A DNA stretch of 64,000 nucleotides from Streptomyces sp. NBC_01267. GTDB lineage: Bacteria; Actinomycetota; Actinomycetes; Streptomycetales; Streptomycetaceae. The notes below the pieces were generated by a model. It ran no database searches and was not told the origin of the DNA. It saw only the letters and a list, made by a program, of their open reading frames with translations. The stretch covers positions 2,972,001 to 3,036,000 of the forward strand of contig NZ_CP108455.1 of NCBI RefSeq assembly GCF_036241575.1, in the 5' to 3' direction. Position numbers and translations under genes: made by a program. The first letter of the stretch is position 1. Each line of letters starts with the position of its first letter. Positions 2,592 through 15,186 of the stretch are shown here, in pieces.

Positions 2592-3767
2592 TCAGACCAC
2601 CCGGACCCCGCGCTGCCACACGCCCGAGACCAGCGGGACACCGGGCCGGTAGGCGAGGTGGACGTGGGACGGGGCGTCGAGCAGCGTCAGGTCCGCCCGC
2701 GCCCCCGGGTCGAGACGGCCGATGTCCGTACGGCGCAGGGCCTGTGCGCCGCCCGCGGTGGCCGACCAGAGCGCCTCGTCCGGGGTCATGCCCATGTCCC
2801 GTACGGCCAGGGCGATGCAGAACGGCACGGAGGAGGTGAACGACGAGCCCGGGTTGCAGTCGGTGGAGAGCGCCACCGTCACGCCCGCGTCGATGAGGCG
2901 GCGGGCGTCGGGCCACTCGGCGCGGGTGGAGAACTCCGCGCCGGGCAGCAACGTGGCGACGGTGTTGCCGTCGGCCAGGGCCGTCACGTCGTCGTCGGTG
3001 AGATGCGTGCAGTGGTCGGCCGACGCCGCGTCCAGCTCCACGGCCAGCCGCACACCGGGACCGTAGCTGAGCTGGTTGGCGTGGATGCGCGGAAGGAGGC
3101 CCTTGGCGCGGCCCGCGGTGAGGATCGTGCGGGCCTGGTCGGCGTCGAAGGCTCCCTGCTCGCAGAAGACGTCGATCCAACGGGCGTGCGGGGCACAGGC
3201 TTCGAGCATGTCACCGGTGACCAGGTCCACGTAACCGGCGGGGTCGTCGGCGTGGTCCGGCGGGACGATGTGGGCGCCCAGGTAGGTGACTTCGTCGGTG
3301 TGCTCGGCCGCGATGCGCAGGGCGCGGGCCTCGTCGGCGACGGTCAGGCCGTAGCCGGACTTGGTCTCCAGCGTGGTGGTGCCCTGGCGCAGCGCCTCGC
3401 CCAGATACGTCCGTACGTTCGCCGAGAGCTGCTCGTCGGTGGCCGCGCGGGTGGCCGCGACCGTCGTGCGGATGCCGCCCGCCGAGTAGCTGCGGCCCGA
3501 CATGCGCGCGTTGAACTCGGCCGTGCGGTCGCCGGCGAACACCAGGTGCGAGTGGGAGTCCACGAACCCGGGGAGGACCGCCCGGCCGCCCGCGTCGACC
3601 GCGTTGTCAGTGGCGGGTGCTTTGCTGGATTCACCGACCCAGGCGATGCGGTCACCGTCGATGACGAGCGCCGCGTCCTGGATCAGACCGAGCGGGGATC
3701 CGTCACCGAGGGAGGGGTTGTTGGTGACCAGGCTGCTGATGTGGGTGATGGCCGTGGTGCTCGGCAT
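2592..3767 (-). CDS. hutI: Imidazolonepropionase
   Basis: 391 aa amidohydrolase that opens 4-imidazolone-5-propionate to N-formimino-L-glutamate, the third step of histidine breakdown. Metal-binding motif [10 protein letters not shown] lies near residue 70; later ligands are in [14 protein letters not shown] and [10 protein letters not shown]. The length is close to the family norm. It is the last hut gene of the leftward operon, 74 bases after hutF. Start ATG 3767 has TAGGAG 8 bases upstream. The intervening spacer is made of degenerate GTTCCCG/CTTCCG repeats. Confidence 0.96.
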
Positions 3768-3841
3768 CGCGGTGTGCTCCTACGGAAACGGGAACAGGAA
3801 CGGAGACGGGGGCGGAAGCGGGAACGGCGCCGGGGCCGGAA

Positions 3842-5191
3842 TCAGGGGTGCAGGGCCCCGATGGCGTCGGCCAGCGCCTGCGGGACGTCGGGTACCAGGG
3901 CGTGGACCCCGTCGCGTACGACATGACGGCCGCCCACGACCGTATGGCGTACGTCCGCCGCGGAGGCGGCGAATACGGCGGTCTCCGCTCCCAGGCGTGG
4001 CACCGGTCCCGCTGTCCTGACGGTGTCGAGGGCGATCGTCGTGAGGTCGGCGAGGGCGCCCGGCTCGATGATGCCCGCCTCGGACCAGCCGAGGGCCTGG
4101 TGGCCGCCCGCGGTGGCGGTGCGCAGCAGGGCGGCGGCCGTCCAGTGGCCGCGGGTGCGGGACCGCAGACGCTCGTCGAGCTCCAGGGCGCGTGCCTCTT
4201 CGAGGATGTCGATCACGGCATGGCTGTCGCTGCCGAGGGAGAGCGGGCTGCCCGCGCGCTGGAGCTGGACCGCCGGGCCGATGCCGTCGGCGAGATCCCG
4301 TTCGGTCGTGGGGCACATACAGGTACCGGTCGCCGTCGAGCCGAGGAGGGCGATGTCCTCGCCGGTGAGGTGGGTGTTGTGGATGCCGGTGGTGCGCGGG
4401 CCCAGTACACCGTGGTCGGCGAGCAGCCGGGTGGGCGTGCAGCCGTGGGCCGCCAGGCAGGCTTCGTTCTCCGCGGTCTGCTCGGAGAGGTGCACATGGA
4501 GCGGGGCGGTGCGCGCCTCGGCCCACTGGGCCACGGTGGCGAGCTGGTCGGCGGGCACCGCGCGCACGGAGTGCACGGCCGCGCCGATCCGGGCGTGGTC
4601 CCGGTCCTTGAGCAGGGAGGCGCGCTCGGCCCACTGCTGGGCGGTGCCGTCGGAGAAGCGCCGCTGGTGCTTCTCGGGCGCCGCGCTGCGGTGCTTGTCG
4701 AGCATGCCGGAGGCGAGATAGGCGGTGTCGAGCAGGGTGATGCGGATGCCCGCGTCGGCCGCGGCGGCGATCAGGGCCTCGCCCATCGCGTTCGGGTCGT
4801 CGTAGGGCTTGCCGCCCGGCGCGTGGTGCACGTAGTGGAACTCACCGACGACGGTGATCCCGGCCAGCGCCATCTCGGCGTACACGGCGCGGGCCAGCGC
4901 GTGGTACGAGTCGGGGGTGAGCCGGGAGGCCACCCCGTACATCACGTCGCGCCAGGTCCAGAAGGTGCCGGAGCCGACCTGGGCCGTGGAGCGCAGGGCG
5001 CGGTGGAAGGCGTGGCTGTGGGCGTTCGCCAGGCCCGGGACGGTCAGGCCGCGCAGGGCGGTCGCGCCGGGCGGCGGCTGCGGCACGTCTCTGCTGACGG
5101 CCGTGATCCTGCCGCCTTCGGTCTCCACGGCGACGCCCGGCTCGACATGGGTGTCGAGCCAGGCATGCTCCAGCCAGTACGTCACCTGCAC
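3842..5191 (-). CDS. hutF: Formimidoylglutamate deiminase
   Basis: 449 aa member of the amidohydrolase superfamily. AHSHAFHR near residue 57, HVHLSEQT, and GSDSHAV supply the metal ligands. HutF converts N-formimino-L-glutamate to N-formyl-L-glutamate and ammonia, the branch that avoids direct release of formamide. The start GTG at 5191 overlaps the upstream gene by 10 bases, indicating translational coupling. Its presence requires a downstream N-formylglutamate hydrolase, discussed under the M20 gene. Confidence 0.94.
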   Translation of the reverse strand: MQVTYWLEHAWLDTHVEPGVAVETEGGRITAVSRDVPQPPPGATALRGLTVPGLANAHSHAFHRALRSTAQVGSGTFWTWRDVMYGVASRLTPDSYHALARAVYAEMALAGITVVGEFHYVHHAPGGKPYDDPNAMGEALIAAAADAGIRITLLDTAYLASGMLDKHRSAAPEKHQRRFSDGTAQQWAERASLLKDRDHARIGAAVHSVRAVPADQLATVAQWAEARTAPLHVHLSEQTAENEACLAAHGCTPTRLLADHGVLGPRTTGIHNTHLTGEDIALLGSTATGTCMCPTTERDLADGIGPAVQLQRAGSPLSLGSDSHAVIDILEEARALELDERLRSRTRGHWTAAALLRTATAGGHQALGWSEAGIIEPGALADLTTIALDTVRTAGPVPRLGAETAVFAASAADVRHTVVGGRHVVRDGVHALVPDVPQALADAIGALHP

Positions 5192-6402
5192 GCCAGGCCC
5201 TCCAGAACATCGGCGAGTGCGGTCACCCCGGCCAGGCAGTCGTCCTCGCCGGCGGTCTCCGCCGGGGAGTGCGAGATGCCCGTGGGGTTGCGTACGAACA
5301 GCATGGCGGTCGGGACGGACGCGGAGAGGATTCCGGCGTCGTGTCCCGCGCCCGTTCCCAGTACGGGGATGTCCGAGCCGTCGCCGCCGAGGATCTTGCC
5401 GAGCTCGTCCCGCAGGGCGTGCTCGAACTCGACCACGGGGGTGAAGGACTCCCGGGTGACGCGGACGTCCACGCCGTCGCGCTCGCCGCGTTCCTTCGCG
5501 GCCTGCTCGATACCGGCGATGACGGTGTCGAGGGTGGCCTGGTCGGCGGCGCGCGAGTCGAGCCAGCCGCGCACCAGGGAGGGGATGGCGTTGACCCCGT
5601 TCGGCTCGACGGCGATCTTGCCGAACGTGGCGACCGCACCCGCGAGTTCGGCCTCGCGGCGGGCGGCGAGGACCGTCTCGGCGTACGTCAGCATCGGGTC
5701 CCGGCGGTCCACCAGGCGGGTGGTGCCCGCGTGGTTGGCCTCGCCGTGGAAGTCGTACCGCCAGCGGCCGTGCGGCCAGATGGCGGAGGCGATGCCGACC
5801 GGGTCGCCGCTGAGGTCGAGGGCCCTGCCCTGCTCCACGTGGAGCTCGACGAACGCGCCGATCCTGGCCAGCCGCTCGGGGTCGGGGCCGATGGCGGCCG
5901 GGTCGTACCCGGCCCGTTCCATGGCCTCGGGCAGGGAGATCCCGTCGCCGTCGCGCAGGTGGCGGGCCTTGTCGGCGGTGAGCTGTCCGGCGCTGAGCCG
6001 GGAGCCGACGCAGGCGAGCCCGAACCGGGCGCCTTCCTCGTCGCCGAAGTTGCTGATGGCCAGCGGCCTGCTGAACTCCGCTCCCCTGCGACGGAGTTCG
6101 TCGAGTGCCGCGAAGGAGGAGACGACGCCGAGCGGGCCGTCGAAGGCGCCCCCGTCCGGTACGGAGTCCAGGTGCGAGCCGGTGACGACGGCGTCGGAGC
6201 CCTGCGGGTCACCGAGCCAGGCCCACTGGTTGCCGTTGCGGTCCAGTTCGTACGTGAGACCGCGGGACTCGGCCTGGTCCTTGAACCAGGCGCGGCAGTC
6301 GGCGTCGGCCGGGGTCCAGGCGTACCGCCGGTACCCGCCGGAGGCGGAGCTGCGGCCGACGGGCAGCAGCTCCGCCCACATCTCGTGGAACGAGGAGGTC
6401 AC
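5182..6402 (-). CDS. M20-family amidohydrolase (allantoate/carbamoyl amino acid hydrolase type)
   Basis: 406 aa zinc amidohydrolase of the hydantoinase/carbamoylase branch of M20. Motifs are [24 protein letters not shown] (catalytic Glu pair), [18 protein letters not shown] from the lid/dimer domain, and GAGHDAG near the C-terminus. Often annotated as allantoate amidohydrolase. Here it lies between hutU and hutF, sharing a GTGA overlap with hutU (start GTG 6402). The expected HutG deformylase is missing, so N-formyl-L-glutamate is a plausible substrate; that is inference from context. Confidence 0.88.
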
Positions 6403-8135
6403 CGGGGATCGCCCTCGCCGCTCGCGACACCGTTGGTGCCGGTGGTGCTGCCGGCGCCCGCGGTGGCACCGGTCGCGTCGTCGCCCTCGCGCATCGGGAC
6501 GCGGACCCCGCGCTCGTCCGCCACCCGCTCGGCGATGTCGTACCCGGCGTCGACGTGCCGGATGACGCCCATCCCCGGGTCGTTGGTGAGCACCCGGCGG
6601 ATCTTCTCGCCCGCGAGCTGCGTGCCGTCGGCCACCGACACCTGACCGGCGTGGATGGAGCGGCCCATGCCGACCCCGCCGCCGTGGTGGATGGAGACCC
6701 AGGAGGCGCCGGACGCGACGTTGACCATGGCGTTGAGCAGCGGCCAGTCGGCGATGGCGTCGGAGCCGTCGAGCATGGCCTCGGTCTCGCGGTACGGGGA
6801 GGCGACCGAGCCGCAGTCCAGGTGGTCGCGGCCGATGACGAGCGGGGCGGCGAGGGTGCCGTCGGCGACCATGTCGTTGAAGAGCGCCCCGGCCTTGTCG
6901 CGCTCGCCCTGGCCGAGCCAGCAGATCCGCGCGGGCAGGCCCTGGAAGTGGACGCGCTCGCCGGCCATCTTGATCCACCGGTGCAGCGACTCGTTCTCGG
7001 GGAAGAGGTCGAGGAGCGCCTTGTCGGTCTTGTGGATGTCCGAGGCCTCGCCGGACAGCGCCGCCCAGCGGAACGGTCCCTTGCCCTCGCAGAAGAGCGG
7101 ACGGATGTAGGCGGGGACGAAGCCGGGGAAGTCGAACGCCCGGCTGTATCCGGCGAGTTGGGCCTCGCCGCGGATGGAGTTGCCGTAGTCGAAGACCTCG
7201 GCGCCCGCGTCCATGAAGCCGACCATGGCCTCGACGTGCCGGGCCATCGACTCACGGGCGCGCACCGTGAAGTCGGCGGGCTTCTCGGCGGCGTACGCGG
7301 CCATGTCGTCGAAGTCGATGCCGAGGGGGAGGTAGGCGAGCGGGTCGTGGGCGGAGGTCTGGTCCGTCACGATGTCGATCGGGGCGCCCTCGGCGAGCAT
7401 CCGCGGCAGCAGCTCGGCCGCGTTGCCGAGGAGGCCGATGGAGAGCGGCTTACGGGCGTCGCGGGCCTCGACGGCGAGCTGGAGGGCGTGCTCCAGGCTG
7501 TCGGCGCGTACGTCCAGGTAGCGGTGCTCGATCCGGCGCTCGATGGCGCGGGGGTCGACGTCGATACAGATCGCGACGCCGTCGTTCATCGTCACGGCGA
7601 GCGGCTGGGCGCCGCCCATGCCGCCGAGACCGGCGGTGAGCGTGATCGTCCCGGCGAGAGTGCCGTCGAACCGCTTGGCGGCGACCGCGGCGAAGGTCTC
7701 GTACGTGCCCTGGAGGATGCCCTGGGTCCCGATGTAGATCCAGGAACCGGCCGTCATCTGGCCGTACATGGTGAGCCCGAGCGACTCAAGGCGCCGGAAC
7801 TCCTCCCAGTTGGCCCAGTCGCCGACCAGGTTGGAGTTGGCGATCAGGACCCGCGGCGCCCACTCGTGCGTCTGCATCACACCGACCGGACGGCCCGACT
7901 GGACGAGCATGGTCTCGTCCTGCTTGAGGGTGCGCAGCGTACGCACCATCGCGTCGAAGGAGCGCCAGTCGCGGGCGGCCTTGCCGGTGCCGCCGTAGAC
8001 GACGAGCTTGTCGGGGTGCTCGGCGACCTCGGGGTCGAGGTTGTTCTGCAGCATCCGGAGGGCGGCTTCCTGCTGCCATCCCAGGGCACTCAGCTCCGTA
8101 CCGCGCGGGGCCCGTACCGGCCGGGGTCCTGACAT
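6399..8135 (-). CDS. hutU: Urocanate hydratase
   Basis: 578 aa, NAD-dependent, hydrating urocanate to imidazolonepropionate. The N-terminal [20 protein letters not shown] and the glycine-rich [18 protein letters not shown] site are typical, as is the segment [17 protein letters not shown] 8135 has GAGGAGG 8 bases upstream, so an in-frame extension to 8231 is rejected. The C-terminus has a low-complexity Gly/Ala/Thr tail (about 20 residues) beyond the usual ~555 aa. First gene of the leftward hut operon; expression is probably controlled from the 8136-8308 divergent region. Confidence 0.96.
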
Positions 8136-8219
8136 GGTTCTGCCTCCTCGGTGTCGCGACCTCGATGTCGCAGTGTGATCCCGCACCGTGGCCTCACGCT
8201 GCGATCTCCCACTGTTGCA

Positions 8220-8257
8220 TGAACTATTCACATCTTGATGAGCTGAATAGAGTTAGT
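8220..8257. promoter_or_regulatory. Putative operator in the hutU-divergent region
   Basis: TGAACTATTCA (8220-8230) is a TGAA-N3-TTCA palindrome. CTATTCA at 8224-8230 forms an inverted repeat with TGAATAG at 8244-8250, centres 20 bp apart (two helical turns). Read on the minus strand, the distal part is TGAC-N7-ATTCAGC, similar to TGAC-N5-ATTCAGC before the lyase/RpiR genes at 15263. No regulator has been proven. Confidence 0.4.
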
Positions 8258-8308
8258 CAATACCGCTGGGCCTCCCGCCGGCCCCCGGCCGGTGATTGGC
8301 TGGATCGC

Positions 8309-9664
8309 ATGGCTTCCCATACGAGCTCCGGACCGGCCTTCGAAACAGGCACCGTCGTACGGCGTGAGCAGGCGGTCGAGGCCGCGGTCGCGGCCGGCCT
8401 GGTCGGCCCCGACAACCCCGTCGTCGCGCTGCTGGACGTCTCCGGCATCCGTGGCGGCGCCGCCGCCCTGCGTACCGCCTTCGACGAGGTCACCCCGCCG
8501 GGGACACCCGTCCTGCACGCCTTCGCGGTGAAGGCGTGCCCGCTCGTGCCGGTCCTGCGGCTGCTCGGAGCGGAGGGCATCGGCGCGGAGGTCGCCAGTC
8601 CGGGCGAGCTGGCGCTGGCCCGCGCGGCCGGGGTACGCCCCGCCCGCACCGTCCTCGACTCCCCCGCCAAGACCCCCGCCGAGCTGCGCGAGGCCCTGGC
8701 CCTGGGGATCGCGGTCAACGCCGACAACCCGCAGGAACTGGCCCGCATCGACGCGCTCGTCCGGTCGGCCCCGACCACGTCCCCGCTGGGCGTGCGCGTC
8801 AACCCGCAGATCGGCGCGGGCTCCATCGGCGCGCTGTCGACGGCCACCGCGACGTCGAAGTTCGGGGTGGCGCTGCGCGACGAGGGCGCCCGCGCGTGGG
8901 TCGTACGCGCCTACCTGGACCGCCCGTGGCTGACCCGGCTGCACACCCACACGGGCTCGCAGGGCGTACCGCTGGCCCTGATGGCGGAGGGGGTACGGAC
9001 CGTCCACGAACTGGCCGAGGAGATCAACGCCGCGGCCGGCCGGCAGCAGATCGACACCATCGACATCGGCGGCGGCCTCCCGGTCAACTTCTCGTCCGAC
9101 GAGGAGACCCCCACGTACGCCGACTACGCCCGCCTCCTCAAGAGGACCGCGCCCGGACTGCTGGACGGCCGCTACGGCCTGGTCACCGAGTTCGGCCGCT
9201 CGCTGCTCGCCCGGCACGGCACGATCCTGGCCCGCGTCGAGTACACGAAGTCCGCCGGCGGGCGGCCCATCGCGGTGACCCACGCGGGGGTCCAGGTGGC
9301 GACCCGCACGGTGTACGCGCCGGCGTCCTGGCCGCTGCGGATCGCCGCGTTCGACGCGCAGGGGCGCCCCAGGACCGGGCCCGCGGTCGCGCAGGACGTG
9401 GCGGGACCGGCCTGCTTCGCGGGTGATCTGCTGGCGGAGAACCGGGAGTTGCCGCTGCTGGAGCCGGGGGACTACGCGGCGGTGCTGGACACGGGGGCGT
9501 ACTACTTCGCGCACCACTACGCGTACAACAGCCTGGCCAGGCCGGGGATCCACGGGTTCACCGCAGGGGCGGACGGGGTGCGGTTCGCCGTGGTGCGGGA
9601 CGCGCAGAGCGTGGCGGAGATCGTGGCGGAGTCGGGCGGCGAGCACGCGGACGCGCTGCTCTGA
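8309..9664 (+). CDS. Fold-type III PLP enzyme, diaminopimelate/ornithine decarboxylase-like
   Basis: 451 aa. The alanine-racemase-like barrel is shown by HAFAVKACPLVPVL (candidate PLP lysine, in place of the usual YAVKAN), the glycine-rich DIGGGLPVNF phosphate loop, and the HTHTGSQG strand. The C-terminal LDTGAYYFAHHYAYNS region replaces the usual substrate loop. Too divergent to call LysA with confidence; Y4yA-type PLP proteins are an alternative. The ATG at 8309 is the first sensible start but has no strong ribosome site. It diverges from hutU and may share its control region. Confidence 0.75.
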   Translation: MASHTSSGPAFETGTVVRREQAVEAAVAAGLVGPDNPVVALLDVSGIRGGAAALRTAFDEVTPPGTPVLHAFAVKACPLVPVLRLLGAEGIGAEVASPGELALARAAGVRPARTVLDSPAKTPAELREALALGIAVNADNPQELARIDALVRSAPTTSPLGVRVNPQIGAGSIGALSTATATSKFGVALRDEGARAWVVRAYLDRPWLTRLHTHTGSQGVPLALMAEGVRTVHELAEEINAAAGRQQIDTIDIGGGLPVNFSSDEETPTYADYARLLKRTAPGLLDGRYGLVTEFGRSLLARHGTILARVEYTKSAGGRPIAVTHAGVQVATRTVYAPASWPLRIAAFDAQGRPRTGPAVAQDVAGPACFAGDLLAENRELPLLEPGDYAAVLDTGAYYFAHHYAYNSLARPGIHGFTAGADGVRFAVVRDAQSVAEIVAESGGEHADALL

Positions 9665-9909: not shown

Positions 9910-10377
9910 GTGCCCGGAATCGACGAGTGTCTGCTGGAAGCGATGCGACTGCCCGGTGCCCTCGGTGCGGGCGTGGTCGACTGGACCAGCGGGCTGACGC
10001 TCGGCACCATCGGCCAGTCACCCAACGACGACCACGAGGCGACCGCCGCCGAGACGGCGGAGCTGGCCAGGATGGCCGCCGAGCACCCCGCCTTCCGCGC
10101 GACGGCCTTCGGTGCGACAGCCTTCGGTGCGACAGCGCCCGCGGGCAGCGGAGAGAGCGGCGACGGGAGCGGCGACGGGAACGGCGACGGGAACGACGGC
10201 GGCCTCTCCGTGGAGGACGTCATCGTCACCACCCGCACCGGCTACCACCTCCTCCACTTCGTCGAGACGACCTTCGACAGCAGCGTCTTCCTCCATCTCT
10301 GGCTGAACCGCGACGAGGGCAATCTGGCGCTCGCCCGATTACGGTTGCGGGACCTCGCCGAACGACTGGTGCTGTGA
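9910..10377 (+). CDS. Roadblock/LC7-like protein with a TTA codon
   Basis: 155 aa. The N-terminal LGAGVVDWTSGLTLGTIG matches the start of the roadblock-like protein at 11710 (LGAALVDFTSGMALGTLG), and the C-terminal half again looks like a roadblock sheet-helix fold. Between them is a Gly/Asp/Ser-rich insert of about 20 residues. GTG 9910 follows GGGAGGGGAG; a GTG at 9880 is possible. Codon 144 (10339-10341) is TTA, the rare Leu codon read by bldA tRNA, so full translation should depend on bldA. It overlaps the next gene by one base (TGATG). Small Ras-like GTPase regulators have this fold; the partner here is unknown. Confidence 0.78.
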   Translation: MPGIDECLLEAMRLPGALGAGVVDWTSGLTLGTIGQSPNDDHEATAAETAELARMAAEHPAFRATAFGATAFGATAPAGSGESGDGSGDGNGDGNDGGLSVEDVIVTTRTGYHLLHFVETTFDSSVFLHLWLNRDEGNLALARLRLRDLAERLVL

Positions 10378-11168
10378 TGGGCCCGGCGCCGCAGAGCAGC
10401 GTCTCCCCGATGCTCGTCCGCCTCGCGGGCGAACGCGCCACCGGCGCCCTGCTGCGTGACCGCGGCACCCTCTACCTGGTCGACGGCCAGGTGGTGCACG
10501 CCGAGAGCCCGGCCGCCCCCGGTATCGACATCCTGCTGACCACCACCGGACGGCTCCGCCCCGAGGGGTGGCAGCAGGCCGTCGACCGGGCCGGGGCCAA
10601 GGGATCGGTCGGCCGGTTCCTCGTCGAGAGCGGGCAGGTGGCCGGGGGCGAGCTGGAGATCTGCCACCTGGGCGCGCTGCACGACGCGGCGTACTTCGCC
10701 CTGGCGCCGGGCAGCGGCCCCACCCGGTTCCGTTACGGGGTGGCCCACTGGATCGGCCCGGTGCACCCCGTACCCGCCGACGCGGTGGAGCGGGAGGCGG
10801 CGCGCCGCCGTGAACTGCTCGACCGGCTGTGGCCGTACCCCGACCTCGACAGCGCCCCCGTGGTGCGGGCCCCGCACCGCAGCCGCGCGGCCGACGTCCC
10901 CGGCACGCCCGTCACCCCGCGCCAGCGCGCGGTACTCGCGCTGGCCGACGGCGTACGGACCCCGCCGGACATCGCGCGGACGCTGGGGCGCCCGGCCTTC
11001 CACGTCCTCATCGACGTCCGCAGGCTGGCAGCCGCCGGCGCCGTCGAGACCCCGCGGACACCCGCGCCGCCCGCCTCCGCCGTCCCCGCCTGGGTCGGCG
11101 AGGTGGCTCGGGACCCGGATGTCGCCCTGCTCCAACGGCTGCGAGACGCATTGGAGGCCACGCTGTGA
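10377..11168 (+). CDS. DUF4388-like/winged-helix protein of the roadblock cluster
   Basis: 263 aa. The N-terminal half (LVRLAGERATGALLRDRGTL then YLVDGQVVHAESP) resembles the DUF4388/PATAN-type domain seen in signalling proteins. The C-terminal part, QRAVLALADGVRTPPDIART and VLIDVRRLAAAGAV, looks like a winged helix. ATG 10377 overlaps the previous stop by one base; the in-frame GTG at 10374 is an alternative. It sits between roadblock genes, and its stop overlaps a GTGA, indicating one transcript. It may couple roadblock signalling to DNA or protein binding, which is inference. Confidence 0.65.
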   Translation: MGPAPQSSVSPMLVRLAGERATGALLRDRGTLYLVDGQVVHAESPAAPGIDILLTTTGRLRPEGWQQAVDRAGAKGSVGRFLVESGQVAGGELEICHLGALHDAAYFALAPGSGPTRFRYGVAHWIGPVHPVPADAVEREAARRRELLDRLWPYPDLDSAPVVRAPHRSRAADVPGTPVTPRQRAVLALADGVRTPPDIARTLGRPAFHVLIDVRRLAAAGAVETPRTPAPPASAVPAWVGEVARDPDVALLQRLRDALEATL

Positions 11169-11206
11169 TCCGCTCCCTGCGGCAGCGCGCCGAGAGGAGA
11201 CAGCTG

Positions 11207-11596
11207 ATGTCCGCCGAGTCCGAAGTCCTCGAAGAGCTACGCCGGTTGAGAGCCCGGGTGCCGCTGATCGGCGGGGCGCTCGCGGCCACCGTCGACGGAC
11301 TGGTGCTGGCGCAGGACGCCGCGGCGGAGGCCGAGTCCGTCGCGGCACTGACCGCCGCCGCCCTCGGTGTCGCCCAGCGGCTGACCGAGACGACGGGCCA
11401 GGGCGGCTTCCGCGAGCTGCTGGTCCGTGGCGAGAACGGCTATGTCGCGACCTACGCGGCAGGCCCGTCCGCCGTCCTCACCCTGCTCGCCCGGCCGCGC
11501 GTCAACGTGGGCCGCCTGCACCTCGAAGCCCGCCGGGCCGGCACCCGGATCGGCGAGCTGGTCGACGGCGCCCTCGACCGGCTGGAGAGCCCATGA
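11207..11596 (+). CDS. Roadblock/LC7 domain protein
   Basis: 129 aa. The segment VPLIGGALAATVDGLVLAQD, followed by a helix ALTAAALGVAQRLTE and then strands LVRGENGYVATYAAGPSAVL, is a classic roadblock/LC7 fold. Such proteins act as GTPase-activating partners of MglA-like GTPases in conservons and gliding systems. AGGAG at 11195-11199 lies 7 bases before ATG 11207; the upstream GTG at 11165 overlaps the previous gene and is less likely. Its stop overlaps a following in-frame ATG (ATGA at 11593). Confidence 0.82.
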   Translation: MSAESEVLEELRRLRARVPLIGGALAATVDGLVLAQDAAAEAESVAALTAAALGVAQRLTETTGQGGFRELLVRGENGYVATYAAGPSAVLTLLARPRVNVGRLHLEARRAGTRIGELVDGALDRLESP

Positions 11597-11709
11597 CCAA
11601 CTCCCCCTCACGGGCGGGCCGTTCCGGCGCCGCCCGTGCCAGGACCGCACCGGACCACGCACGGAACCACACCAGGAAATCCACCCACGAGAAAGGAAGT
11701 GCACCCCTC

Positions 11710-12084
11710 ATGGCGAACACCGAGAACGCACTCAAGGACGCGATGACCTCGATCGAGGGCGCGCTCGGCGCGGCGCTCGTCGACTTCACCAGCGGCATGG
11801 CCCTCGGCACGCTCGGTGGTGGCAAGGACCTCGATCTGGCGGTGGCCGCCGCCGGGAACACGGATGTGGTGCGCGCCAAGGTGCGGACCATGGAGCACCT
11901 CGGCATGAAGGACGAGATCGAGGACATCCTGATCACGCTGGGCGAGCAGTACCACCTGATCCGGCTGCTCAAGGGACGCGACAACACGGGCCTGTTCCTC
12001 TACCTCGCGCTGGACAAGTCCCGGGCCAATCTCGCGATGGCCCGCCACCAGCTGAGGAAGATCGAGGCCGAGCTGGAGGTGTGA
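11710..12084 (+). CDS. Roadblock-like regulator
   Basis: 124 aa. LGAALVDFTSGMALGTLGGG is followed by helix DVVRAKVRTMEHLGMK and strands EDILITLGEQYHLIRLL and GLFLYLALDKSRANLAMARH. It is homologous to the first gene of the cluster, without the insert. ATG 11710 has AAAGGAAG about 10 bases upstream; a start at ATG 11593 would add 39 basic/polar residues and is less likely. Last gene of the four-gene unit. No GTPase or sensor kinase is encoded nearby, unlike in a conservon. Confidence 0.8.
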   Translation: MANTENALKDAMTSIEGALGAALVDFTSGMALGTLGGGKDLDLAVAAAGNTDVVRAKVRTMEHLGMKDEIEDILITLGEQYHLIRLLKGRDNTGLFLYLALDKSRANLAMARHQLRKIEAELEV

Positions 12085-12839: not shown

Positions 12840-13676
12840 CTACTCCACGAACAGCCCCCGCGCCGCCGCCCGCGCGTCGAACTCCTCCAGCCGCGACTGC
12901 GCCTGCGGCAGCTCGTCGCACATCGCCTCCAGCAGCACCCGGCCGAGCAGCATCGGCCCACAGGCCGTGTCGAAGGCCAGACCGGTGCCGACCGCCGCCG
13001 GGATCAGGATGTCGCTGTGCTTGGCGACCGGCGCGAAGGCCGAGTCGGCGACCGTCACCACGGTCAGCCCCGCCGACTGCGCGTACGCCAGTGCCTCGAC
13101 CACCTCGCGCGGGTGGCGCGGCAGCGCGAAACAGAGCAGCACCGTGGCGCCCGCCCGTACCGACGCGTCGATGCGGTCGGCCAGCATCGTGCCGCCCTCG
13201 TCGAGCAGCCGGACGTCCCGGTGGACCTTCGCCGCGAAGTACGCGAACCCCCTGGCCTGCGAGGACGCGGCACGCAGGCCGAGCACCGGCAGGGTCGGCG
13301 ACCCGGCGAGCAGCCGTCCCGCCCGTTCCACGAGTGACGGGTCGGCGAGCAGTTCGGACAGCTGCCGCAGATTCTCCAACTCGCCCTGGACGGCCTGCTG
13401 GTACTCGTTGAGGCTGTCCCCGCCGACCGCCCGCCCGTTCGGTGCGACCTCCCGCAGGTGCTTGCGCAGCGCCGGGTAGCCGTCGAAGCCGAGCGCGACG
13501 GCGAAGCGGGTGACGGAGGGCTGGCTGACACCGGCCAGCTCGGCCAGCTCGACCGACGAGAGGAACGGCGCGTCGGCGGCCCGGCGCACCATGCAGTGCG
13601 CGATCCGCCGTTGGGTCGGCGTCAGCCGGTGCCCTTCGAAGAGCTGTTGCAGCCGTGCGGCCGGGCTGTCGCTCAT
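12840..13676 (-). CDS. MurR/RpiR family transcriptional regulator
   Basis: 278 aa. An N-terminal helix-turn-helix (VELAELAGVSQPSVTRFAVA) is followed by a SIS sugar-phosphate-binding domain (GLRAASSQARGFAYFAAKV, LLCFALPRHPREVVEALAYA). RpiR proteins bind phosphosugars or related metabolites. ATG 13676 is preceded by GAGGGGGA. It lies 28 bases after the lyase-family gene, so the pair is probably one operon and it likely controls it. Confidence 0.9.
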   Translation of the reverse strand: MSDSPAARLQQLFEGHRLTPTQRRIAHCMVRRAADAPFLSSVELAELAGVSQPSVTRFAVALGFDGYPALRKHLREVAPNGRAVGGDSLNEYQQAVQGELENLRQLSELLADPSLVERAGRLLAGSPTLPVLGLRAASSQARGFAYFAAKVHRDVRLLDEGGTMLADRIDASVRAGATVLLCFALPRHPREVVEALAYAQSAGLTVVTVADSAFAPVAKHSDILIPAAVGTGLAFDTACGPMLLGRVLLEAMCDELPQAQSRLEEFDARAAARGLFVE

Positions 13677-13704
13677 GCCGTCCCCCTCAAGATCCATGTC
13701 CGTG

Positions 13705-15186
13705 TCAGAGTTCATTGAACCGGTCGAGCAGCGCGGCTGCCGCCTCCACATCGCCGGTCAGCGGCCGGTCCGCCAGGTCCGGATCGAGTACCGCGTCCGC
13801 CAGCTCGAAGGCGCGGCCGACCGGCAGGCCGGGGTCGATCCGCAGCTCGCGCTGGCGCAACGCCCTTACGGCGGCGACCAGTTCGCAGCCGACGACGTAC
13901 CGGTACGCCCGCCCGGCCCGCAGCGCCTGCCGGGCCGCCAGTGAGGCGAAGCTGGCCTGTTCCTCGACGCCGCGGGAGAGAACAGCATGCCCGAGCGAGG
14001 CCGGCGCGGAGAAGGCCCGCAGGTCACCGAGGGCCGCCCCGGCCGCGTACTCCAGGATCATCACGCCCGACGAGGCGGCCTCGCCGTCGGCCAGGAAGGG
14101 CCTCAGCCGGGTGAGCGCGGGTTCGTTCAGCGCGGAGAGCCGGGAGGTCGAGAGCCGGGCCGTCTGGGTGAGGGCCAGCCTGAAGTGGTCGAGGGCCAGG
14201 ACCAGTTGGGCCATGTAGAAGCCACCGTGGTGGTAGGCGGCCATGTCGGCGGGGCGGATCAGCGGGTTCTCGGCCGCCGCGTTGATCTCGATGGCGATGG
14301 TCCGCTCCAGCAGGTCGGCCGCGTCGTGTGCGGGGCCGTGGATCTGCGGTACGCAGCGGAAACCGTACGGGTCCTGGATGCGGCCCAGCGGCGGGGTGGG
14401 CCGCTCGGGGGCGCCCAGCAGGTAGCGGCTGCGGGCGGCGACCGCGTACGAGCCGGGGTGCGGGCGGGCCGCGTGCACCGGTTCCGCGTACGCCTCGAAC
14501 GAGCCGTCCACGGCGAGCAGCGACAGCGCGGCCACCACCTGGGTCGCGGACACCAGCCGGCGCAGCTCGTCGAGGGCGAGCGCGGACTGGCCGAGGGTGA
14601 GGGCGTTGCTGCTGATCAGTGCGAGGGCGTCGTTGTTGTCGAGGGGCTGCGCGGCGGGCGGCGCACCGCCCTCCCAGGGGTGCTCGCCGGCCAGGGCGAG
14701 TCCCAGCTGGGCGAGGGCGGCGATGTCTCCCGTACCGACCGAGCCGAACTCGTTGACGACGGGGTGGGCGCCGGACTCCAGGGCCTCGCAGAGCGCGGTG
14801 ACGACGGTGGGCCGCAGTCCGGCCCCACCGGCGAGCAGCTGGTTGGCGCGGACCGCGAGCATGGCCCTGACCTCGTGCGCGGGGAGCGGGTCGCCGATGG
14901 CCCCGGCGTGCGAGCGCAGCAGCCGCAGTCCGTGGTCGGCGGCGGCGCCGGAGGGCACGGACTCGTTACGGTTGGCCCCGACACCGGTGGAGCGGCCGTA
15001 CACGCGGCCCGACGCGGCGAGCTCACGGGCCGCGTCCCACGACCATTCGACACGCTTCATCGCTTCGGATCCGGGTACGGGCCTGGCCGTACCACGCGCC
15101 AGTCGCACCACATCGGAAACCGGAAGGGACTCACCGTCGAGGACCACGATGCCGGTCGGGGTATCCACCGTGCGGGACGACATCAT
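13705..15186 (-). CDS. Aromatic amino acid lyase (HAL/PAL) family protein lacking the MIO triad
   Basis: 493 aa, colinear with histidine ammonia-lyase: YGRSTGVGANRNE, SSNALTLGQSALALDELRR, QDPYGFRCVPQIHGPAHDA, INAAAENPL. The sequence where HutH has GSVGASGD, whose Ala-Ser-Gly cyclise to the MIO cofactor, reads GSVGTGD here, one residue shorter with no A-S-G. So canonical ammonia-lyase activity is doubtful. AAAGGAGG lies 9 bases before ATG 15186. It is followed by an RpiR regulator and diverges from a betaine-type importer. True HutH may be elsewhere in the genome. Confidence 0.82.
   Translation of the reverse strand: MMSSRTVDTPTGIVVLDGESLPVSDVVRLARGTARPVPGSEAMKRVEWSWDAARELAASGRVYGRSTGVGANRNESVPSGAAADHGLRLLRSHAGAIGDPLPAHEVRAMLAVRANQLLAGGAGLRPTVVTALCEALESGAHPVVNEFGSVGTGDIAALAQLGLALAGEHPWEGGAPPAAQPLDNNDALALISSNALTLGQSALALDELRRLVSATQVVAALSLLAVDGSFEAYAEPVHAARPHPGSYAVAARSRYLLGAPERPTPPLGRIQDPYGFRCVPQIHGPAHDAADLLERTIAIEINAAAENPLIRPADMAAYHHGGFYMAQLVLALDHFRLALTQTARLSTSRLSALNEPALTRLRPFLADGEAASSGVMILEYAAGAALGDLRAFSAPASLGHAVLSRGVEEQASFASLAARQALRAGRAYRYVVGCELVAAVRALRQRELRIDPGLPVGRAFELADAVLDPDLADRPLTGDVEAAAALLDRFNEL

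Follow-up and report, generated by a model that had tools for sequence, protein, structure and literature searches.

A conserved Streptomyces operon of roadblock-like proteins and a partly CvnC-like protein, without its own GTPase gene

GENES AT THE LOCUS

Four head-to-tail open reading frames, here called A, B, C and D, lie on the + strand at positions 9910 to 12084 of a 64-kb stretch of the Streptomyces sp. NBC_01267 genome (contig NZ_CP108455.1, positions 2,972,001 to 3,036,000); we call this whole stretch the window. An earlier note, made from its letters, had proposed that the four genes form a single unit with neither the Ras-like guanosine triphosphatase (GTPase) nor the sensor kinase of a conservon (CvnA-B-C-D), perhaps a stand-alone signalling complex. 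The unit is best read as a set of regulators, like a GTPase-activating protein (GAP) and a guanine nucleotide exchange factor (GEF), that is separated from its GTPase.

Gene A (9910..10377) encodes a divergent roadblock protein of 155 amino acids (aa), a paralogue of D with a Gly/Asp-rich insertion. Gene B (10377..11168, 263 aa) encodes an N-terminal DUF4388/PATAN-like domain (10455..10808, aa 27-144), a winged helix weakly like that of CvnC (DUF742) (10902..11051, aa 176-225) and a CvnC-type C-terminal helix (11115..11162, aa 247-262, PDVALLQRLRDALEAT, 15.3 bits). Gene C (11207..11596, 129 aa) encodes an MglB/CvnB-type roadblock protein, and gene D (11710..12084, 124 aa) a conserved roadblock protein that no Pfam family matches above cut-off. 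Of the two overlaps in the earlier note, the TGATG at 10375-10379, where the stop codon of A overlaps the ATG of B, is real. The other, in the GTGA that ends B (11165-11168), exists only if C begins at GTG 11165, which would make it 143 aa long; ATG 11207, preceded by AGGAG, looks the likelier start.

The motif VD(W/F)TSG(L/M)(T/A)LGT is indeed common to A (VDWTSGLTLGT, 9976-10008, + strand) and D (VDFTSGMALGT, 11779-11811, + strand). The two proteins belong to one hidden Markov model (HMM) family, which had 62 members in the loci first examined, and A is placed on the A side of the A/D tree.

CONSERVATION OF THE UNIT

D-family proteins were found in 41 of 197 genomes of a class-wide sample and in 18 of 296 of a phylum-wide sample. 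A protein search with D gave at least 7998 candidates, and all matches listed passed. We fetched 154 further loci (L039-L192), most of them picked because they bear D; the sample overlaps itself, L041 and L155 being probably one genome. A, B, C and D are contiguous on one strand in 87 of the 154; this and the common family of A and D mark the arrangement as more than a chance one. Median spacings in these 87 loci are -4, 44 and 74 bp (A-B, B-C and C-D), and median identities to the window proteins are 70% for A, 67% for B, 74% for C and 82% for D. Ratios of nonsynonymous to synonymous substitution rates (dN/dS) against six relatives are 0.16-0.39 for all four genes.

One could suppose that a former GTPase operon is decaying here and that its remaining genes have lost their function, since the GTPase gene is missing here and present in some distant relatives. 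The kept gene order and the dN/dS values already contradict this, and we consider it very improbable.

The unit is flanked in the window (2592-9664 and 12840-15060) by genes that Pfam assigns to urocanase, an imidazolonepropionase-like amidohydrolase, an aromatic amino acid lyase, a pyridoxal phosphate-dependent (PLP) decarboxylase and an RpiR-type regulator, by their domains a histidine-utilisation neighbourhood. These flanks recur in only part of Streptomyces; the unit has different neighbours in other genera and in L066 and L067, and membership of a histidine-utilisation locus was rejected for that reason.

Four other Streptomyces genomes (loci L079, L080, L081 and L082) hold a second GTPase-less module, B2-C2-X, in which X (142 aa) matches the C profile weakly (15-20 bits) and has no Pfam match.

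ROADBLOCK PROTEINS

The earlier note had called A, C and D roadblock-like and had looked to structure prediction for the fold. C passes the Pfam cut-off for Robl_LC7 (E 2.6e-16, 59.6 bits). A stays under the cut-off of 23 (17.3 bits, E 0.004), and no Robl_LC7 match was found in Pfam for D, whose structural model nevertheless has a predicted roadblock fold (a-b-b-a-b-b-b-a). An NCBIfam scan of all four proteins returned a sub-threshold MglB match for C as its sole match. We had considered that D might be unrelated to roadblock proteins, given that nothing in Pfam matched above cut-off and that the one PDB sequence match had E 1.3; the structural model of D and the fold searches led us to reject this. 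CvnF8 was dropped as a relative of D, being a GAF protein according to the abstract of its paper.

Profile comparison with hhalign joins C to CvnB at a probability (P) of 98% (E 8e-14), while D reaches P 69% against C and 29% against CvnB. In a tree of C proteins (all trees here are unrooted) the conservon CvnB rows form a separate clade (98/99), and the window C groups loosely (81/87) with C of L188 and L189.

PROTEIN B AND CvnC

B had been described as a DUF4388/winged-helix protein. Both parts of that description are borne by weak matches: DUF4388 scores 20 bits (cut-off 25), HTH_47 matches weakly, below its cut-off, and DUF742 reaches 13.7 bits (cut-off 27). The homologous, GTPase-linked B of L188 scores 58.8 bits for DUF4388. 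The structural model of B has a predicted local distance difference test (pLDDT) score of 87. Against the winged helix of CvnC, hhalign gives P 54% (E 1.3e-4), and the negative comparison, B against CvnB, gives P 0.2%.

The C-terminal helix was scored with a position matrix made from the final 16 residues of nine conservon CvnC tails, with a threshold of 3.6 bits, the 99th percentile of 1818 unlabelled proteins. This threshold is exceeded by 92 of 109 B proteins, which are mutually related, so that the passes are not independent events, and by 281 of 21800 shuffled B tails. The highest unlabelled score is 14.3 bits, compared with 15.3 for the window B, and 41 B proteins lie above that maximum. 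B thus appears partly like CvnC, as the winged helix (weakly) and the C-terminal helix are common to both and the DUF742 cut-off is not reached.

Four A-type proteins of f17 genomes have the same tail (18.5-24.7 bits); each of these genomes has 7-9 matches for CvnD and none for B. The A+D family profile, run against CvnC as a negative, gave P 54% over 20 columns only, which are the CvnC-type tails of such fused A-type rows. At L060, L077, L092 and L093 an A-type roadblock protein with a CvnC-type C-terminal helix stands beside D, without B or C.

The winged helix of B would allow a different role, that of a transcriptional regulator which contacts DNA through this domain and is itself controlled by the roadblock proteins. 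The weak HTH_47 match fits this, as do matches below cut-off to MarR_2 and TrmB in the B of L188 and to MarR_2 in another Streptomyces B. We regard this role as improbable.

GTPASES BESIDE THE UNIT

Profiles for MglA/CvnD-type GTPases were searched in six-frame translations of 155 stretches, the window and L039-L192, counting matches above 30 bits. None was found in the 64-kb window, and none of its called genes encodes a CvnA-type kinase, so the earlier claim that both partners are missing stands. B, C and two D-family matches occur together in 90 stretches: the window, 22 of the class sample (15 from the genus of the window and seven from two other families), 66 named records and L188. Within the fetched stretch, no GTPase was found in any of the 89 that belong to the class, that is, in the window and 88 of 88 others. 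The ninetieth, L188, comes from another class and is the only one with a GTPase.

Overall a GTPase is present in 15 of 148 D-bearing stretches. In six of these (L042, L044, L143, L148, L181 and L186) it is part of a conservon, complete or nearly so, at a distance of 3.9-5.1 kb from a solo D and 4-5 kb downstream of it. Genes downstream of the L042 conservon look by eye like cytochromes P450; this label is not used here, since Pfam gave no match at E <= 0.01 for the one that was tested.

In the other nine, from three lineages, a Ras-like GTPase lies within 1.3 kb of D (L057, L058, L100-L103, L188, L189 and L192). The earlier note had named a GTPase conserved beside the unit in related genomes as one observation that would speak against it; close relatives have none, and it is these distant ones that do. 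In the direction of transcription, the order is B, GTPase, a protein of 184 or 181 aa, C and D in L188 and L189 (L188 has a second D); D, GTPase and C in L192, where 4 bp separate the first two genes; and GTPase, C and D in L057 and L058. In L100-L103 a GTPase-C pair is divergent from D. The L188 and L192 GTPases match Pfam ATP_bind_1 and Ras above cut-off. Family f33 has D in 11 of 79 genomes, and the GTPase adjoins D in six of the 11; two f33-type GTPases that do not adjoin a D (L104 and L106) have Pfam matches below cut-off only.

The protein between GTPase and C in L188 (6440-6994) and L189 (2237-2782) is conserved, and the 184-aa form in L188 has no Pfam match above cut-off. At L106 (8200-8589, genome G233) a GTPase-C pair is followed, in the place of D, by a 129-aa protein that looks roadblock-like by eye and has no Pfam match.

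In the D tree, the rows flanked by a GTPase are scattered rather than grouped. An ancient GTPase-B-C-D module may plausibly have lost its GTPase gene in the Streptomyces line; because the trees are unrooted, loss is here a proposed direction, as opposed to later gain elsewhere.

GTPASES ELSEWHERE IN THE GENOMES

The genome of the window has nine CvnD-type GTPases, each within a complete conservon. A private, unlinked GTPase was sought there and not found: all nine matches are in conservons, and a tenth falls in a 1046-aa frame that is presumably a translation factor. The same genome has an orphan CvnB-type roadblock gene (L195, 7692-8144; C1:7583748), with no other conservon gene called in that 16-kb stretch.

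A CvnD-profile match was found in all 41 D-bearing genomes of the class sample. The 39 outside f33 have 3 to 13 conservon-type matches each, and the two f33 genomes have weak ones (E about 1e-11), which belong to the GTPase type linked to D. A stand-alone MglA/CvnD-type GTPase was sought without success in five of the 11 D-bearing f33 genomes (G229, G206, G253, G266 and G246; completeness 98-100%) and, outside the class, in D-bearing G276 (100%) and G488 (94%). The best GTPase hits in these genomes cover at most about 50 model positions or fall in frames of 630-1045 aa, apparently translation factors. G391 gave no such GTPase either, and there the D match is split in two and interrupted by stops.

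A PROPOSED REGULATOR SET ACTING IN TRANS

We propose that the A-B-C-D set, which has no GTPase gene of its own, serves as a conserved accessory that regulates Ras-like GTPases, acting in trans on conservon CvnD proteins, and we put the probability of this at about 0.45. Its clients are probably the nine conservon GTPases of its own genome; since all nine are in full conservons, a target would be one of these. As an MglB/CvnB-type roadblock protein, C would be the part that meets the GTPase, either GAP-like or as a platform for it. B would couple a DUF4388/PATAN-like sensor or adaptor domain to the CvnC-like winged helix and C-terminal helix and could be GEF-like. A and D, as roadblock partners in the manner of MglC or LAMTOR2, would build a larger scaffold with C inside it. 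In Streptomyces such a complex may act on one or more CvnD GTPases, tuning their GTP state according to whatever B senses.

The two activities are suggested by homology: C resembles CvnB, whose homologue is a GAP, and B ends like CvnC, whose mycobacterial homologue is a likely GEF. In mycobacteria, according to two papers, MfpD (the CvnB homologue) is a GAP and MfpC (the CvnC homologue) a likely GEF for the GTPase MfpB (PMC13343842, PMC13015309).

Of the earlier note's proposal, the conserved GTPase-less unit stands; a module separated from its GTPase fits better than a stand-alone complex unrelated to GTPases, given the GTPase-linked distant relatives and the CvnC-like C-terminal helix and weak winged helix of B.

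Several observations weigh against regulation of conservon GTPases. The window C lies outside the conservon CvnB clade. The B-CvnC winged-helix match appears weak at P 54%, 17 of the 109 B proteins lack the CvnC tail or score under the threshold for it, and the GTPase-linked B proteins of L188 and L189 barely pass (4.3-5.0 bits against 3.6). Co-occurrence with conservons is confounded by shared ancestry, and conservons can do without the module, as is seen in one Streptomyces genome (G153) where D is missing and CvnD has eight matches. Finally, the five f33 genomes, G276 and G488 have D and no stand-alone GTPase that we could find, so at least solo D needs none and the family may act without a GTPase.

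These D-only genomes also support the main rival, a GTPase-free roadblock scaffold, in which a complex of A-D, C and B has become a signalling platform in its own right with B as sensor and output adaptor. The lack of a GTPase in the fetched stretch of all 88 other class loci with the unit, the higher conservation of D than of the other three proteins and the eight D copies that precede an ArsR-type regulator instead are consistent with it. Against it, the GTPase-less genomes carry solo D and not the A-B-C-D unit; every class-sample genome that has the unit also has conservon GTPases; and the normal MglB/CvnB profile of C and the CvnC tail on most B proteins would have no obvious need in such a complex. 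We think it less likely than regulation in trans. Rated slightly lower is a form of this idea centred on the A/D roadblocks, a family that would have left its GTPase more than once and would now link a new client either to B, with its DUF4388 sensor, or to an ArsR regulator, keeping the surface VDxTSGMxLG, IEDILITL and NLAxAR.

The ArsR-linked copies are solo D genes with an ArsR-type HTH gene directly after them (L040, L042, L044, L047, L070, L071, L072 and L075). Pfam finds ArsR in both loci tested (L042 and L071), and the copies form one clade (99/92) in the D tree.

A GTPase-less combination of GAP-like, GEF-like and two scaffold-like proteins is a candidate for the control of cross-talk among conservon copies, of which there are nine here and thirteen in S. 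coelicolor. A working rule is that roadblock proteins serve nucleoside triphosphatases (NTPases); this rule would change if the unit works without any GTPase.

COMPARISON WITH KNOWN SYSTEMS

The earlier note knew of no description of these genes as a system, and our literature searches found no description of the A-B-C-D unit. Judged by these searches, what is new is the A/D roadblock family, which escapes Pfam, together with the operon it forms with B and C, those of its relatives that are linked to a GTPase, and the CvnC-type C-terminus of B.

Conservons, whose GTPases reportedly help to control specialised metabolism in Streptomyces and take part in mycobacterial fluoroquinolone resistance, share with the unit the phylum, a tight operon, a CvnB-like protein and a protein with a CvnC-like winged helix (weakly so in B) and C-terminal helix. 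The unit differs in having neither CvnA kinase nor CvnD GTPase, in the extra DUF4388/PATAN-like domain of B, in its two additional roadblock proteins A and D, and in that CvnB proteins keep to their own clade (98/99) in the C tree.

Orphan MglB proteins offer a further comparison. In the available text of Wuichet and Sogaard-Andersen (2014), 328 of 749 MglB homologues are uncoupled, a small actinobacterial MglB clade is exclusively orphan, its genes lacking both an MglA gene within four genes and flanking conservon genes, and no orphan MglB had been characterised at that time (PMC4316618). C may belong to this clade; A, D and B are not mentioned in that text. The same source credits Makarova 2006 with PATAN proteins near some MglA genes (PMC4316618). 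L188 and L189 are modules of that PATAN-associated MglA/MglB kind, GTPase included, in having a PATAN protein near MglB; the window unit differs from them in lacking the GTPase and in having the A and D roadblock subfamily.

The likeness to the eukaryotic Ragulator/LAMTOR and GATOR1 complexes is at the level of the fold only, with no Rag GTPase in the unit. In Myxococcus xanthus, MglC is layered on MglB, according to one study (PMC7949163), and A and D would likewise add a roadblock layer. Unlike an MglA-MglB type GTPase module, the window unit has no adjoining Ras-like GTPase. It is a real, conserved unit, and a variant of the known GTPase-regulator modules rather than a separate kind.
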